Source of the DNA: Desulfovibrio sp. DV
GTDB lineage: Bacteria; Desulfobacterota; Desulfovibrionia; Desulfovibrionales; Desulfovibrionaceae
Reading direction: 5' to 3'
Assembly (NCBI RefSeq): GCF_001936595.1
Contig: NZ_MLBG01000032.1
Location: forward strand, 1 to 39,562
DNA: 39,562 nucleotides
Position 1 is the stretch's first letter. Every line of letters starts with the position of its first letter. A program made the translations under genes and the position numbers. Positions 1,306 to 6,693 of the stretch are shown in pieces. Under the pieces are notes generated by a model. That model ran no database searches, was not told the DNA's origin, and saw only the letters and a program-made list of their open reading frames with translations.

Positions 1306-4284
1306 ATGAGCCAGGATTTCATGGATCCGGAACTGTTTGCCGACTTTATCGTCGAAGCCCGGGAGCACCTCGAGACCATCGAGCCCAATCTCCTTGAGCT
1401 TGAGCGCAATCCCGGCAACCTCGCCCTTTTGAATGATATTTTCCGGCCCATGCACTCCCTCAAGGGTGCCTCGGGTTTTCTGGGCTTAAACGCCATCAAT
1501 GGTCTGGCGCATAAAGCCGAAAATATTCTCGACGAACTGCGCAAGGGAAACATTCCCGTCAACCCCGAGATCATGGACGTCATCCTCTCGGCCACGGACA
1601 TCCTGCGCACCATGATCGAGAACCTGGAGCAGACCGGGGTGGAGGGCGACCTCGACACGGCCCCGGTCATCGCCCGCATCGCCGTGCTCCTGGAAGGCGG
1701 TCCGGTCGCTTCCCCCGAAGCACCGGCCATGCCTTCGGCCGGCGACTTCCCGCCCGAAGACGCACCCGCGCCGCAACCTGAGCCGAAACCGGAGCCCGTC
1801 GCCCCGAAGCCGGCCCCGGCCACACCGGCCAAAACGATCATCAATATCGAAGACCTGCCGCCGTTTCTGCCCGACCCCTATCCGCTGACCTCCATCGGTG
1901 AAGGCCATATGGCCGATTTCATGGAGGAAGCCCGGGAAATTATCGAGCGCTTAAATGCCGCCCTGCTCGAACTCGAGGCCACCGGCGAAGGGCCAAACGA
2001 AAGCATCAACGACATCTTTCGCTATTTCCACAACCTCAAGGGCAACAGCGGCATCATCGGGCACAAGGAATTAAACGGCCTGACCCACGAAGCCGAAACC
2101 CTGCTCAACCGGGTGCGCAAGGGCGAGATGGTCGCCACCCCGGCCATGGTCGATCTGCTCCTGGCCGTGGTCGACCAGGTCGAAGCCCTGGTCACCACCA
2201 TCGACTCGGGCACGAGCATTGCCACGCCGCTGGACATCCGCCCGCTGGTGGCCCGGCTCAAGCAGGCCAGCGAGGATGGCTACGTGGCCGAGCCGGGAAA
2301 CGGCGTCGCTCCTGAGCCGGAACCCGAGCCCGAACCCGAACCGATCCCCGAACCGCAGCCGCAAAAAAAGGCCGCCGAGGCCGGCAAGGGCCCGGCCACC
2401 GCACCGGGATACGATCCGGAAGACGTGGCGGTTTTCGAGTCCACCATCGACCAGCAGATCACCTACATGACCCAGGCCCTGGCCGGGCTCAATGAAAATT
2501 CCGAATCCAAGGAAATGGTGGACGGCCTCTACCGGGCCCTGGTCACCATCCAGAATTCCTCAGGCTACATGGGCCTGACCGACCTCAAGGTCCAGGCCGA
2601 ACGCACGGCCGGCCTCGTGGACACCGGACGCAAACAGGGACTGCCCTTTGAACTGCTCCTCGACATGCTGCGTCAGGAGTGCTCCATCCTCGGGGACATG
2701 CTCGCTTCCGCCCTGGTCAAACTGCGGGCCGCCCCGGCTGCCGCCCCGGCCGAGGCCGCAGCCGAGCTGCCGCCGGCCACATCGGCAAAGCCGCAGTCCG
2801 AACCCGAGCCGCAGCCGGCGCCCCAACCGGAACCGCAACGCCAGCTGCAGCCTGAGCCGGCCCCTGAACCGGCCCCGGCCGCCGAATCCGAACCGGCCCC
2901 CAAGCCCGAGCCCAAGCCCGAGCCCAAGCCTGAACCGGCCCCGGCCGCCAAGCCGGAACCCAAGCCCGCGGCCAAGCCGGAACCGAAACCGGTTCCCAAG
3001 CCGGCGGCCAAACCGGCGCCCAAACCTGAGCCGGCTGCGGCCGCGCCCCAGGCTGAGGCCGGCAAGCCCAAGGTCTCGGCCACCATCCGGGTGGACCACG
3101 AAAAGCTGGACCACCTCATGAATCTCATCGGCGAGTTGCTCATTAACCGCAACCGCTTCACCATGCTGGCCCGCGCCCTGGAAGAGGGCAAGGACAGCGG
3201 CGCGCATATCGGCCAGCAGCTCACCGAGACCACCTACGCCATGGCGCGCATTTCCGACGACCTGCAAGACACCATCATGAAGGTGCGCATGGTCCCGGTG
3301 TCCACGGTGTTCTCCCGTTTCCCGCGCCTGGTGCGCGACCTGTCGCGCAAATCCGGCAAGGAAGTGTCGCTGATCACCGAAGGCGAGGAAACCGAACTCG
3401 ACAAGTCCGTGGTCGAGGTCATCGGCGATCCCCTGGTCCACCTCATCCGGAACTCCGTGGACCACGGCATCGAAACCGAGGCCGAACGCATTGCCGCCGG
3501 CAAGCCGCCGGTTGGGCGCGTGTGGCTTCGCGCCTACCACCGCGGCAACTCGGTGGCCATCGAGATCGAAGACGACGGCAAGGGCATCGATCCGGCCAAG
3601 ATGCGCGAAGTGGCCGTCAAAAAAAATCTCATGAGCCCCGAAGAAGCCAAGGCCATGGACGACCGGGACGCCATCGACATCATCTTCATGCCCGGCTTTT
3701 CCTCGGCCGAGACCATCACCGACATCTCCGGCCGGGGAGTCGGCATGGACGTGGTTCGCACCAACATCAAAAATCTCAAAGGCACGGTCAACGTCAGCAG
3801 CGAAGTGGGCAAGGGCACGAAATTCACCCTGTCCCTGCCGCTGACCCTGGCCATTATCGACGCGCTCATGGTGGTCGTTGCCGGCCAGACCTACGCCTTG
3901 CCGCTCGATTCCGTGTCCGAAACCACCAAGATCGAAGTCAGCCGCATGACCGAGATCAACAAGCGCAAGGCCGTCACCCTGCGCGGCGAAGTCCTCGGCA
4001 TCGTCGAACTGGCTGAAATTCTGGAACTGCCCCAGAGCCAGGACAAACAGGAAATCGCCCCCATCGTCATCCTCCAGGATAACGAACGCCGACTCGGCCT
4101 CATCGTGGACCGGCTGCTGGAACGCCAGGAAATCGTGATCAAACCCCTTGGCAGCTATTTGTCCGAATTCGATATGCGCGGCATCTCCGGGGCCACCATC
4201 ATGGGCGACGGCTCCGTGGTGCTCATCCTCGATCCGCACGAAATCTACATGATGTCCACCCCTGGCGGACGGTCCAAGGGATAG
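1306..4284 (+). CDS. cheA: CheA-type histidine kinase with two active and one degenerate Hpt domain
   Basis: A 992-residue CheA, longer than the usual 650-700. In order: Hpt 1 with phospho-accepting His50 in MHSLKGASGFLG; a Pro/Glu linker; Hpt 2 with His242 in FHNLKGNSGIIG; a third Hpt-like fold near residue 413 where the motif reads VTIQNSSGYMG, so the histidine is replaced by valine; a very long Pro/Ala/Lys/Glu linker (about 470-585); dimerisation helices; an ATPase domain with N box at Asn716 (LIRNSVDHGIE), DDGKGID at 756 and GRGVGMDVV; and a C-terminal CheW-like domain from about 846. The ATG at 1306 is preferred over the TTG at 1303 because it is six bases from GAGGT. It is last in the operon and is followed by a hairpin element. 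Confidence 0.94.
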   Translation: MSQDFMDPELFADFIVEAREHLETIEPNLLELERNPGNLALLNDIFRPMHSLKGASGFLGLNAINGLAHKAENILDELRKGNIPVNPEIMDVILSATDILRTMIENLEQTGVEGDLDTAPVIARIAVLLEGGPVASPEAPAMPSAGDFPPEDAPAPQPEPKPEPVAPKPAPATPAKTIINIEDLPPFLPDPYPLTSIGEGHMADFMEEAREIIERLNAALLELEATGEGPNESINDIFRYFHNLKGNSGIIGHKELNGLTHEAETLLNRVRKGEMVATPAMVDLLLAVVDQVEALVTTIDSGTSIATPLDIRPLVARLKQASEDGYVAEPGNGVAPEPEPEPEPEPIPEPQPQKKAAEAGKGPATAPGYDPEDVAVFESTIDQQITYMTQALAGLNENSESKEMVDGLYRALVTIQNSSGYMGLTDLKVQAERTAGLVDTGRKQGLPFELLLDMLRQECSILGDMLASALVKLRAAPAAAPAEAAAELPPATSAKPQSEPEPQPAPQPEPQRQLQPEPAPEPAPAAESEPAPKPEPKPEPKPEPAPAAKPEPKPAAKPEPKPVPKPAAKPAPKPEPAAAAPQAEAGKPKVSATIRVDHEKLDHLMNLIGELLINRNRFTMLARALEEGKDSGAHIGQQLTETTYAMARISDDLQDTIMKVRMVPVSTVFSRFPRLVRDLSRKSGKEVSLITEGEETELDKSVVEVIGDPLVHLIRNSVDHGIETEAERIAAGKPPVGRVWLRAYHRGNSVAIEIEDDGKGIDPAKMREVAVKKNLMSPEEAKAMDDRDAIDIIFMPGFSSAETITDISGRGVGMDVVRTNIKNLKGTVNVSSEVGKGTKFTLSLPLTLAIIDALMVVVAGQTYALPLDSVSETTKIEVSRMTEINKRKAVTLRGEVLGIVELAEILELPQSQDKQEIAPIVILQDNERRLGLIVDRLLERQEIVIKPLGSYLSEFDMRGISGATIMGDGSVVLILDPHEIYMMSTPGGRSKG
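2776..3060 (+). repeat. Low-complexity Pro/Glu/Lys/Ala codon repeat inside cheA
   Basis: Tandem, imperfect units encoding EP, KPEP and AAKPEP build the flexible linker between the third Hpt-like domain and the dimerisation domain. Units such as CCCGAGCCCAAG recur many times. Such repeats commonly change length by slippage. Shorter EPEPEP tracts sit near 1770-1830 and 2310-2370. Confidence 0.75.
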
Positions 4285-4409
4285 GCTGCCCCGGGGCGCG
4301 GCCCGGCCCGGCCAGGAGGGACGCTGTCCCTCCTGGCCGCCAAAACAGCAAAATCCCTCACCCCTTCCGGGGGTCCGGGGGATGATCCCCCGGCGGGGTT
4401 CGGGGCAGC
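4285..4409. repeat. Multi-hairpin intergenic element closed by an outer stem
   Basis: The element starts at the base after the cheA stop. GCTGCCCC at 4285-4292 is the exact complement of GGGGCAGC at 4402-4409, forming an outer stem. Inside are a perfect 13-bp hairpin (4310-4322 with 4326-4338) and a perfect 8-bp hairpin (4375-4382 with 4386-4393), plus a small CCCC/GGGG hairpin just before the latter. No conserved protein is encoded. From memory, similar GC-rich palindromic segments recur between genes in related genomes, which fits a dispersed repeat or an RNA element. I cannot test that here. Confidence 0.55.
4310..4338 (+). terminator. Perfect 13-bp hairpin after cheA
   Basis: GGCCAGGAGGGAC pairs perfectly with GTCCCTCCTGGCC around a three-base loop. 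There is no T-run after it, only CAAAACAGCAAAA. It is therefore either a non-canonical terminator or an mRNA 3'-end stabiliser of the che operon, and part of the larger folded element. Confidence 0.5.
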
Positions 4410-4460
4410 GCCCGATATTCTGCCTTTCGCCTCCCATCGCCTCCTGCCGCGTGCATCCCC

Positions 4461-4489
4461 TTGACGTCCGGCCCGGCCCGCAGTACATC
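4461..4489 (+). promoter_or_regulatory. Predicted sigma70 promoter of the ilv leader
   Basis: TTGACG at 4461-4466 and TACATC at 4484-4489 are separated by exactly 17 bases. Transcription would start near 4496, giving about 30 bases before the leader-peptide ATG at 4526. The placement relative to the leader peptide and attenuator supports it, though the -10 box is only moderately good. Confidence 0.5.
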
Positions 4490-4525
4490 CAAACGAACGA
4501 TTCACTCCACCAAGGAAGCCTTGCC

Positions 4526-4612
4526 ATGACGACTGCCAACCGCGCCCAGCTATCCTGCTCTCTGCAGACGACGTGCGCGGTCGTAGTAGGCGTCGTTATC
4601 GCGGCGCCTTAG
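4526..4612 (+). CDS. ivbL: Valine-rich leader peptide of the ilvB operon (ivbL-like)
   Basis: This 28-codon ORF begins MTTANRAQL and ends CAVVVGVVIAAP. It has five valine codons and one isoleucine codon in a short run (GTC GTA GTA GGC GTC GTT ATC). That is the layout of the E. coli ilvB leader peptide IvbL, which also has a valine block shortly before its stop. A ribosome site (CAAGGAAG, 4511-4518) precedes the ATG. A terminator hairpin lies about 30 bases after the stop, followed by ilvB. When charged valyl-tRNA is scarce, stalling in the valine codons should prevent the terminator from forming. The peptide itself is expected to have no function after synthesis. Confidence 0.85.
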   Translation: MTTANRAQLSCSLQTTCAVVVGVVIAAP

Positions 4613-4675
4613 CGGGGGATTTTTCTTTTTTGTGACAACCCAGTCCCCGCCGGCGCGCCGGTGGGGGCTTTTTTT
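4568..4675 (+). promoter_or_regulatory. Transcription attenuator of the ilvB operon
   Basis: Three mutually exclusive pairings can be read. A pause-type stem joins ACGACG (4568-4573) to CGTCGT (4591-4596) across the valine codons. A candidate antiterminator joins GCGGGG (4612-4617) to CCCCGC (4645-4650), with extra GCGCC/GGCGC pairing possible. The terminator has an 11-bp stem (4643-4653 with 4658-4668, two G-T pairs), a CGCG loop and seven T's at 4669-4675. The antiterminator uses the left arm of the terminator, as the attenuation model requires. Confidence 0.75.
4643..4675 (+). terminator. Attenuator terminator upstream of ilvB
   Basis: GC-rich 11-bp stem with a four-base loop followed directly by TTTTTTT. 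It lies between the leader-peptide stop (4612) and the ilvB start (4719), so it is a regulated early terminator and not an operon end. Confidence 0.85.
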
Positions 4676-4718
4676 GGGGTCTGTCCACCGCGCGCCATGG
4701 GGCTTTACGGAGCCTTGC

Positions 4719-6398
4719 ATGATACGGTTAACGGGTGCGCGCATCATTGCCCAGAGTCTTCTCCGCCACGGCATCACCACCGTGGCCGGCATTCCCGGCG
4801 GGGCCAACCTGCCGCTTTTCGACGCCATAGCCGAGACGCCGCTGCGCATTGTCCTGGCCCGCCATGAGCAGGGGGCCGGGTTTATCGCCCAGGGCCTGGC
4901 CCGGGTGACGGGCCGGCCGCAGGTGTGTCTGGCCACCTCCGGCCCGGGGGTCATGAATCTTCTCACCGCCATTGCCGATGCCAAGGCCGATTCCGTGCCG
5001 CTGGTTTGCATCACCGGGCAAGTGCCGCGCGGACTCCTTGGGACCGACGCCTTTCAGGAGGTGGACGTCTACGGCCTGACCATTCCCATTGCCAAACACA
5101 ACATGCTGGTGCGCCGGGCGGCCGATCTGCCGCGCCTTATGGCCGAGGCCTTTGCCATCGCCGCATCGGGCCGTCCGGGGCCGGTGGTCATTGACGTGCC
5201 CCGGGACGTGCAGACCGAGGAAGCGGCCTTTGACGACTGGCCGGCGGCGGATGCCGGGCCGGTTCCCGCGCTGCCCGGTCCGGCCGATCTGGCCTTTGCG
5301 GCCTCGCTTTTGGCCCGGTCCGAGCGGCCGCTTTTGTATTGCGGCGGCGGCGCGGCCCGGGCCGGGGCGCAGGTTGCCGCATTGGCCGGGATGTTGGACG
5401 CACCGGTGGTGACAACGCTGATGGGCCTTGGCCTCCTGCCGCCGGACCATCCCCGGTACGCCGGCATGATCGGGATGCACGGCGCGCCGGCGGCCAACCA
5501 TCTGCTGGCCCGCTGCGACATGCTGGTGGCCATCGGGGCGCGTTTTGACGACCGGGCCACGGGCGACGCCAAGCGGTTTTGTCCGGGGGCGTCGGTGGTC
5601 CACATCGACATCGATCCGGCCGAGCACCACAAAAACCGCCAGGCCCATGTGGCTCTGGCCGGGGATGCCGGCCGGGTGCTGACGGCGCTTTTGCCGCTGG
5701 TCCCGGCCCGGCCGCGGCCGGGCTGGACCGCCATACGCGAGCGTGTGGCCCTGGAGCATCCCTTTGTCCTGCCGGGCCTTGGTGATCCGAAAAGCCCCTA
5801 TGGAATGCTGGCCGCCGTGGCCGGGATGCTTGGCCCCGACGCCGTGGTGGCCACCGATGTCGGGCAAAACCAGATGCGCGCCGCCCAGGCCTGGCCCTGC
5901 CACCGACCCGGGAAGTTTCTGACCTCGGGCGGGCTTGGCACCATGGGCTTTGGCCTGCCGACGGCCATCGGCGCGGCCCTGGCCGATCCCGGCCGGCCGG
6001 TGGCCTGTGTTGTCGGCGACGGCGGGCTTTTGATGAACGTGCAGGAGCTGGCCACCCTGGCCGAGCTCGGGCTGCCGGTCAACATTCTGCTCATGGACAA
6101 CGGCGTGCTTGGGCTGGTGCGCCAGCAGCAGGCCCTTTTTGTCGGCGGCCGGTATACCGCCTCGACCTTTGCCGCCCGGCCGGATTTCGTGGCCCTGGCC
6201 GCATCGTTTGGCATCGCCGCCCTGGACCTCGAACCGTGCCGGGATGTCCGGTCGGCCCTGGCCGCCGCCCTGGCCGCGCCCGGACCGGCGCTGGTGCGCC
6301 TGCCCGTCGATCCCGATGCCCACGTCTATCCCATGGTGCCGCCCGGCGCCGCCAACCATGAAATGATTCTGGAGAAACGCCATGCCCACGCCTCGTAG
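4719..6398 (+). CDS. ilvB: Acetolactate synthase, large catalytic subunit
   Basis: Makes acetolactate (or acetohydroxybutyrate) from pyruvate, the first common step of valine, leucine and isoleucine synthesis. The 559-residue length is normal. Glu50 in HEQGAGFIAQG is the conserved glutamate that activates thiamine diphosphate. The cofactor/Mg motif starts at about residue 433 (GDGGLLMNVQE) and runs to the downstream Asn. The central FAD-domain region carries GARFDDRATG. The ATG at 4719 is chosen because it lies six bases after GGAG and after the attenuator; the longer reading from GTG 4632 would place the terminator inside the gene. Its end overlaps the small-subunit gene by 17 bases. Confidence 0.96.
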   Translation: MIRLTGARIIAQSLLRHGITTVAGIPGGANLPLFDAIAETPLRIVLARHEQGAGFIAQGLARVTGRPQVCLATSGPGVMNLLTAIADAKADSVPLVCITGQVPRGLLGTDAFQEVDVYGLTIPIAKHNMLVRRAADLPRLMAEAFAIAASGRPGPVVIDVPRDVQTEEAAFDDWPAADAGPVPALPGPADLAFAASLLARSERPLLYCGGGAARAGAQVAALAGMLDAPVVTTLMGLGLLPPDHPRYAGMIGMHGAPAANHLLARCDMLVAIGARFDDRATGDAKRFCPGASVVHIDIDPAEHHKNRQAHVALAGDAGRVLTALLPLVPARPRPGWTAIRERVALEHPFVLPGLGDPKSPYGMLAAVAGMLGPDAVVATDVGQNQMRAAQAWPCHRPGKFLTSGGLGTMGFGLPTAIGAALADPGRPVACVVGDGGLLMNVQELATLAELGLPVNILLMDNGVLGLVRQQQALFVGGRYTASTFAARPDFVALAASFGIAALDLEPCRDVRSALAAALAAPGPALVRLPVDPDAHVYPMVPPGAANHEMILEKRHAHAS

Positions 6399-6693
6399 CG
6401 ACCACAATCCGATGGATGCTTCCCGGGCCGTGCTCGAACTGGCCACCCGCGATGCCCTGGCCGCCTTGCGCCATGTGGCGGCCTGTCTGGCCCGCCGCTC
6501 CCACGAACTGCTTGGGCTCACCTGCGAACCCGGAGTGTCCGGGCCGGGCCGGCTCCTGGTGACCGTGGCCGACGACGGGCGCCTCGACCGGCTGGTTGCG
6601 GAACTGCGCGGCCTGCCGGAGGTGTGCGGGGCGCGCCTGGCCGGGACGGCTGCCGGCTGCGGTCTGCGGCTGGCCGAGCCGGCCGCGGCCTGA
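6382..6693 (+). CDS. ilvN: Acetolactate synthase small-subunit-like ACT protein (IlvN type)
   Basis: A 103-residue protein overlapping the end of ilvB, with its ATG just after GGAGAAACGCC. The body (residues about 35-95) has the beta-alpha-beta pattern and the RLLVTVADDGRLDRLVAEL stretch of a single ACT domain, as in the short E. coli IlvN (about 96 residues). It lacks the C-terminal domain of the longer IlvH type. The small subunit would bind valine for feedback inhibition and activate the large subunit. Sequence identity to known IlvN is low, so the call rests largely on gene position, length and ACT-like pattern. Confidence 0.72.
   Translation: MPTPRSDHNPMDASRAVLELATRDALAALRHVAACLARRSHELLGLTCEPGVSGPGRLLVTVADDGRLDRLVAELRGLPEVCGARLAGTAAGCGLRLAEPAAA

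Follow-up and report, generated by a model that had tools for sequence, protein, structure and literature searches.

The region upstream of ilvB in Desulfovibrio sp. DV raises the question of how a sulfate reducer might match branched-chain amino acid synthesis to demand. We analysed a stretch of 39,562 nucleotides of contig NZ_MLBG01000032.1 (the window), in which ilvB (4719..6398, ATG at 4719) encodes the large subunit of an acetohydroxyacid synthase (AHAS) of the AHAS-I type. Judging from the sequence and from modelled RNA folds, ilvB is very probably preceded by a ribosome-mediated attenuator of transcription like that of ivbL-ilvBN, whose most likely function would be to permit branched-chain amino acid synthesis only under shortage. 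The initial annotation had proposed ivbL-ilvB attenuation for this locus, a reading borne out by the parts of the element, their conservation and covariation, and the match of the E. coli counterpart to a covariance model. All features described below lie on the plus strand.

Leader peptide and competing hairpins

The leader and its terminator occupy the gap from the 3' end of cheA at 4284 to the start of ilvB at 4719, both genes having the same orientation. The ivbL-like leader peptide gene (4526..4612), recognised by its translation and by its conservation in the genus and the family, has 28 codons, reads MTTANRAQLSCSLQTTCAVVVGVVIAAP and ends at a TAG stop. Its last ten codons hold five Val and one Ile, in agreement with the initial annotation. 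A Shine-Dalgarno-like AAGGA (4512..4516) lies 9 nt 5' of the leader ATG. The putative Val control codons GTC GTA GTA (GGC) GTC GTT (4580..4597) stand out because all but the last, GTT, are invariant in the genus and because GTA is rare in ilvB, and codon 9 is the hyper-rare Leu codon CTA (4550..4552), which recurs in the leaders of the genus and the family. Farther upstream, we noted a promoter-like TTGACG and TACATC separated by 17 bp (4461..4489). By eye, TTGAC followed by TA 17-18 bp later was present in all 12 genus orthologues; a simple sigma-70 scan reported no promoter, this site included.

Alternative hairpins and a T-tailed terminator had also been described ahead of ilvB, and all three folds proved more stable than all or nearly all shuffled sequences. 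The protector (1:2; 4589..4608) pairs 4589-4596 with 4601-4608 through 8 base pairs and folds with -12.5 kcal/mol, a stability that 1 of 200 shuffles reached. The antiterminator (2:3; 4604..4656) joins 4604-4608 to 4652-4656 and 4612-4617 to 4645-4650, with -21.2 kcal/mol for 4604-4617 against 4645-4656 (0 of 200 shuffles); its internal loop contains the first two bases of the leader stop codon. The intrinsic terminator (3:4; 4642..4675), recognised by a terminator scan as well as by folding and covariation, consists of a 12-pair stem at 4642-4669 and a T tract running to 4675 (-23.9 kcal/mol; 0 of 200 shuffles). The three hairpins compete with one another, the antiterminator sharing the 5' arm of the terminator, and the minimum-energy fold of 4500-4680 contains the protector and the terminator together.

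Conservation in the genus and the family

Orthologues of ilvB were found in 12 of the 14 genus genomes, each preceded by the leader and the terminator; the two genomes lacking the gene, G008 and G010, are 89% and 69% complete. Conservation among the 12 orthologues was uneven. Leader codons 1-17 kept 13 of 51 columns and the linker 1 of 22, compared with 27 of 36 from 4577 to the stop codon and 27 of 30 in the terminator. The codons GTC GTA GTA GGC GTC were invariant letter for letter in all 12, in line with the conservation of Val codons predicted in the initial annotation.

For the family, we sampled 288 Desulfovibrionaceae genomes, of which 133 carry ilvB at E ≤ 1e-150, and read all 133 upstream regions. 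An open reading frame (ORF) of 10-60 codons with at least four Val in 12 codons and a terminator-like stem no more than 60 bases after it, the whole within 330 bases of ilvB, preceded the gene at 129 of these 133 loci. The same arrangement occurred in 16 of 665 dinucleotide shuffles, ahead of 3 of 205 other large ORFs and at none of the 14 ilvB paralogues of the genus. In two of the four exceptions (L169 and L196) the element sits beyond the 330-base limit and was recovered with a longer upstream region; L177 has few Val codons, and L150 has the leader and no stem passing the scan near ilvB. The arrangement was also present at 70 of 80 named loci. Seven of the ten remaining loci show a leader and a terminator-like stem by eye; L081 and, in part, L027 match the covariance model described below, and L030 shows nothing.

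Two complete modules of Val-rich leader and terminator in series were observed before ilvB at 3 of the 133 family loci (L138, L157 and L162; at most 480 bases read upstream) and, by the same rule, at 5 of the 80 named loci (L041, L042, L051, L066 and L079). L041 and L157 are apparently the same contig and represent one case. L150 and L008 each gave two covariance-model matches. Tandem attenuators have been published for mgtCBR; in the available text of the literature searched on tandem attenuators, we found no tandem valine leaders before ilvB.

Covariation and in silico switching

Covariation was clear for the terminator and weaker for the antiterminator. In an alignment of 29 family loci, which were our own choice from the 133 and omit six genus representatives (L137, L151, L181, L183, L212 and L229), some with weak antiterminators, 96.0% of the terminator cells were paired. 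Eight of its 12 pairs had changed on both sides (0 of 500 shuffles), and no shuffle gave as high a covariation score; such compensatory changes in the stem had been predicted in the initial annotation. For the antiterminator, 87.7% of the cells were paired, 7 of 11 pairs had changed on both sides (4 of 500 shuffles), and 3 of 500 shuffles reached the covariation score. An unselected set of 23 loci, one per genus, gave the same picture with smaller margins. There the terminator was 94.9% paired, with a covariation score of 0.290 (0 of 500), 5 of 12 pairs changed on both sides (22 of 500) and 13 further pair types, a number that 183 of 500 shuffles reached; the antiterminator had a score of 0.245 (5 of 500), and both partners differed in 6 of its 11 pairs (16 of 500). 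When either helix was shifted by 1 to 3 columns, pairing fell to 63.4% or less.

The leader end also paired more strongly with its own terminator arm than with arms swapped between loci (means of -19.73 and -17.73 kcal/mol; n = 23, one locus per genus; 0 of 2000 permutations). The swap test omitted 8 of the 75 named loci, for which no leader-terminator pair was obtained.

When a ribosome was walked in silico along the 12 genus leaders, the antiterminator reached its maximum of 12.0-12.6 pairs while the A site occupied codons 18-22, which lie 11 to 7 codons ahead of the stop (GCG GTC GTA GTA GGC in the window). Pairing fell to about zero once the A site was on either of the last two codons or on the stop. 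In this model, a ribosome stalled on the control codons would leave the antiterminator arm exposed, and one that has reached the stop codon would hide it.

Several observations speak against attenuation of this form. The -10 element of the promoter-like site is poor. In the set with one locus per genus, the antiterminator was 84.0% paired, which 63 of 500 shuffles also reached, and in the swap test the own arm had a median rank of 7th among 23. A stall at CTA left only about 8 antiterminator pairs in the genus walk. In the equilibrium model, the ribosome-free leader retained a mean of 10.4 antiterminator pairs in the genus and 7.9 in the rest of the family; therefore, low basal expression in the absence of translation is not predicted. 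The other 121 family leaders gave no sharp peak. Between 26 and 8 codons ahead of the stop, their curve ran along a plateau of 9.2-11.3 pairs, with 9.2 pairs at 26 codons and 11.3 at 10 and 9 codons, and it then fell to 0.3 at the stop.

In one genus (g34; 17 loci between L183 and L216, not all of that range), we observed leaders that end in EGRL or EGML and not in AP, and 10 of the 17 lack CTA. In the g34 leaders displayed, the antiterminator arm lies farther upstream of the stop codon, a variant form of the switch. These variant leaders were excluded from the 29-locus alignment.

Putative control codons and the amino acids probably sensed

All 12 genus leaders have CTA as codon 8, 9 or 10, and 110 of 133 family leaders have it in frame. 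The family count refers to codons -30 to -12 before the stop, a range that was cut at stop codons only and may take in triplets 5' of the leader start. The same codon was found in none of the 6600 ilvB codons of the genus and none of the 2321 codons of five window genes; the corresponding counts were 2 and 2 for GTA, and 9 and 6 for ATA. Across the family, CTA made up 122 of 2526 leader codons in that range versus 2 of 16500 ilvB codons (a background of 30 of the 133 ilvB genes), and among all codons it ranked first in enrichment over ilvB, with GTA second. In the family, 36 of 133 leaders had an Ile codon among their last 12 codons; Ile codons accounted for 2.6% of these positions, less than the 5.8% in ilvB. 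At the place of the Ile codon of the window, the 12 genus leaders have ATC (3), ATA (5), GTT (3) or AGA (1); Ile is thus kept in eight, with Val in three and Arg in one.

According to the available text of two earlier studies, CUA is the most suitable leucine control codon in E. coli (PMC1183508), and leucine starvation slows ivbL at its Leu codons (PMC3783181). Because of these precedents, the enrichment of CTA and the scarcity of Ile codons, we read the signals as valine and leucine, a pair that codon usage makes likelier than valine and isoleucine. The operon would then respond to the supply of both amino acids, and we consider the leucine input probable. Of the valine and isoleucine sensing suggested in the initial annotation, the valine part stands; isoleucine sensing is less likely, with an added Ile input possible at the window locus.

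It is also conceivable, if rather unlikely, that the attenuator works by the same mechanism with valine alone (or valine and isoleucine) as its signal, and that CTA merely paces the ribosome with RNA polymerase. The antiterminator maximum does fall on the Val codons, and pairing is partial at CTA. Moreover, 23 of the 133 leaders in the family have no CTA, nor do 41 of the 74 leaders at named loci (33 have it), and the eight genus leaders that keep Ile include five with ATA, a codon seen 9 times in 6600 ilvB codons. However, CTA is the codon most enriched in the family leaders relative to ilvB, E. coli ivbL carries CTA CTA at a similar place and is reported to slow at its Leu codons under leucine starvation, as cited above, and Ile is scarcer at the leader ends than in ilvB. 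We therefore retain valine and leucine as the favoured signals.

A metabolite- or ppGpp-binding riboswitch before ilvB, with no translated leader, is very improbable. Riboswitches for ppGpp have been found before some ilvB genes (PMC10272879, available text), but conservation here falls on the codons of the Val-rich ORF, and CTA in the family leader range was counted 122 times in frame versus 21 and 1 times in the other two frames. No Rfam family reached its gathering score across the window, and with a relaxed E-value at L001, L061 and L110 only istR and tRNA reached thresholds, with no attenuator family among them.

Distribution beyond the family

A covariance model built solely from the 29 aligned Desulfovibrionaceae loci found a match upstream of ilvB, on the correct strand, at 74 of 75 named loci outside the family, the exception being L030. 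Roughly 30 of these 75 loci come from enterobacteria or their near relatives and do not count as independent cases. Sixty-four loci scored at least 38 bits and ten (L072, L081, L079, L009, L066, L021, L027, L040, L059 and L042) between 20.0 and 37.1 bits. The E. coli ivbL region (L061) matched over the full model length with 43.9 bits (E 3.6e-11 in a 557-kb search; E-values are rough because the model calibration was short). Within the family, 85 of 86 further loci matched (two of them in the training set; L219 was missed), and none of the 14 paralogue loci did.

The background was gauged in whole genomes. In the genome of Desulfovibrio sp. DV, the element scored 81.6 bits, and 22 weaker matches reached at most 30.9 bits (150 of 2634 first-look candidates scored), one of them on the opposite strand of the same hairpin. 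Sixteen of 21 relatives searched had a match at E ≤ 0.01, and two genus genomes without an ilvB orthologue still gave matches at E of about 1e-5. Other hairpins in the genus reached about 31-33 bits, and G292, from another family, gave 37.4 bits. Consequently, matches below about 38 bits are indistinguishable by score alone from other GC-rich hairpins, and the ten low-scoring loci rest on position and their Val-rich leaders.

In a quick IlvB tree of 86 rows, including 8 of the unnamed family loci, the lineage labels changed 11 times, with 10 the minimum possible. Thermodesulfobacteriota alone require 5 changes, and 16 forks are open. L041, titled Desulfovibrio, sits with Verrucomicrobiota. The tree and the model matches together indicate that the leader accompanies the AHAS-I branch of ilvB, which could reflect either inheritance of the RNA from a common ancestor or the transfer of whole operons.

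The contig L016, titled Chryseobacterium, sits inside Enterobacter in the same tree; it is probably mislabelled or contaminated and was discounted.

By its sequence signature, the attenuator system extends well past the gammaproteobacteria. On balance, we lean towards the following reading, taken as a whole: the ivbL attenuator would be one deeply conserved RNA, and not an enterobacterial device, that accompanies AHAS-I ilvBN across Pseudomonadota, Desulfobacterota, Verrucomicrobiota and single genomes of other phyla; the letters of its leader end, antiterminator and terminator would be largely kept; and many lineages would sense Leu and Val with the host-rare codons CUA and GUA, some with the element doubled in series. 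Since a model trained on a single family recognises the RNA in other phyla, and Rfam gave no match to it in the window or at the three loci searched, an RNA family model could help to annotate missed leader peptides.

Proposed mechanism

Transcription would start probably near 4497, and the leader would be translated while RNA polymerase nears the terminator. With little charged Val-tRNA available, the ribosome is expected to stall on GTC GTA GTA (GGC GTC), which would disrupt the protector (4589-4596 with 4601-4608) and free 4604-4617 to pair with 4645-4656. This pairing would block the terminator and allow transcription of ilvBN. When Val-tRNA is plentiful, the ribosome would proceed to the stop codon at 4610 and cover 4604-4617, and the terminator would form. 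A stall on the rare Leu codon CTA probably also relieves termination, less well.

Neighbouring genes and upstream context

The best NCBIfam model for IlvB is PRK08155, with 748 bits, under the cut-off of 870 set for that model; the match to TIGR00118 exceeds its cut-off. In the tree, the window ilvB groups with other AHAS-I genes and apart from the paralogue of the same genome (L002), and its product is 89% identical to IlvB of Solidesulfovibrio aerotolerans. The next gene (6412..6693) encodes an ilvN-like small subunit. Its match to PRK08178 is weak (E 9.5e-7; 28.7 bits, far under the cut-off of 128); a homologue also lies 3' of ilvB in the 11 other genus orthologues.

That the hairpin merely terminates cheA, which lies upstream on the same strand with the hairpin between both genes, and that the small ORF arose by chance, is hardly credible: cheA was seen at only 3 of 12 genus orthologues (1.5-kb flank) and is also missing from the 3-kb flanks of L005 and L006, whereas the leader and terminator are present in all 12, the leader end and the terminator arm co-change, and the element is found with ilvB elsewhere too. 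As the variable upstream context strongly disfavours a cheA terminator, we dropped that explanation in favour of the attenuator.

Soon after cheA, a very stable hairpin was observed at 4308-4340, without a T tract (-33.2 kcal/mol for 4300-4345, a stability reached by 0 of 200 shuffles). Directly 5' of the promoter-like site, 4340-4425 is a dispersed GC-rich intergenic repeat with at least 49 matches in the same genome, the window copy included (40 of 227 first-look candidates scored).

Comparison with known systems

Attenuators have been described as diverse and rapidly evolving (PMC2965389), and E. coli is known to control ilvBN through ribosomes on a leader peptide, a control also proposed for other ilvB motifs (PMC10272879), according to the available text of these papers. 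The literature searched, which did not extend to the 2004 and 2010 attenuator surveys cited in PMC10272879, contained no Desulfovibrio ivbL element and no recognition of the ivbL element as one RNA across phyla; a Desulfovibrio ilvB attenuator may already be listed in those surveys. The attenuation mechanism itself is already known, and the depth of conservation, the rare control codons and the tandem copies are of more interest. CUA and GUA are nearly absent from ordinary genes and yet fixed in the leader. This contrast makes it possible to test directly whether control codons are selected for the sensitivity of their tRNA isoacceptors, and sulfate reducers would be a new place for doing so.

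The ilvB-OMG, ilvB-II and Leptospira ilvB motifs likewise place an upstream ORF rich in branched-chain codons before ilvB, with attenuation proposed (PMC10272879). Rfam did not recover them here, and ilvB-OMG was compared by description only. The attenuator of the leu operon also uses the rare CUA as its leucine control codon (PMC1183508), whereas the single CUA of the window stands early in a leader dominated by Val. The closest likeness is to E. coli ivbL-ilvBN. Both systems have a Val-rich leader that ends in -AP before an AHAS-I ilvBN, one or more CTA Leu codons situated 20-23 codons ahead of the stop and followed by the Val run, the leader end GCGCC-N-TAG and the terminator arm CCCCGCCGGCGC. 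They differ in that the window leader has five Val codons, including the hyper-rare GTA, and E. coli ivbL has nine, and the two IlvB proteins are only 51% identical.

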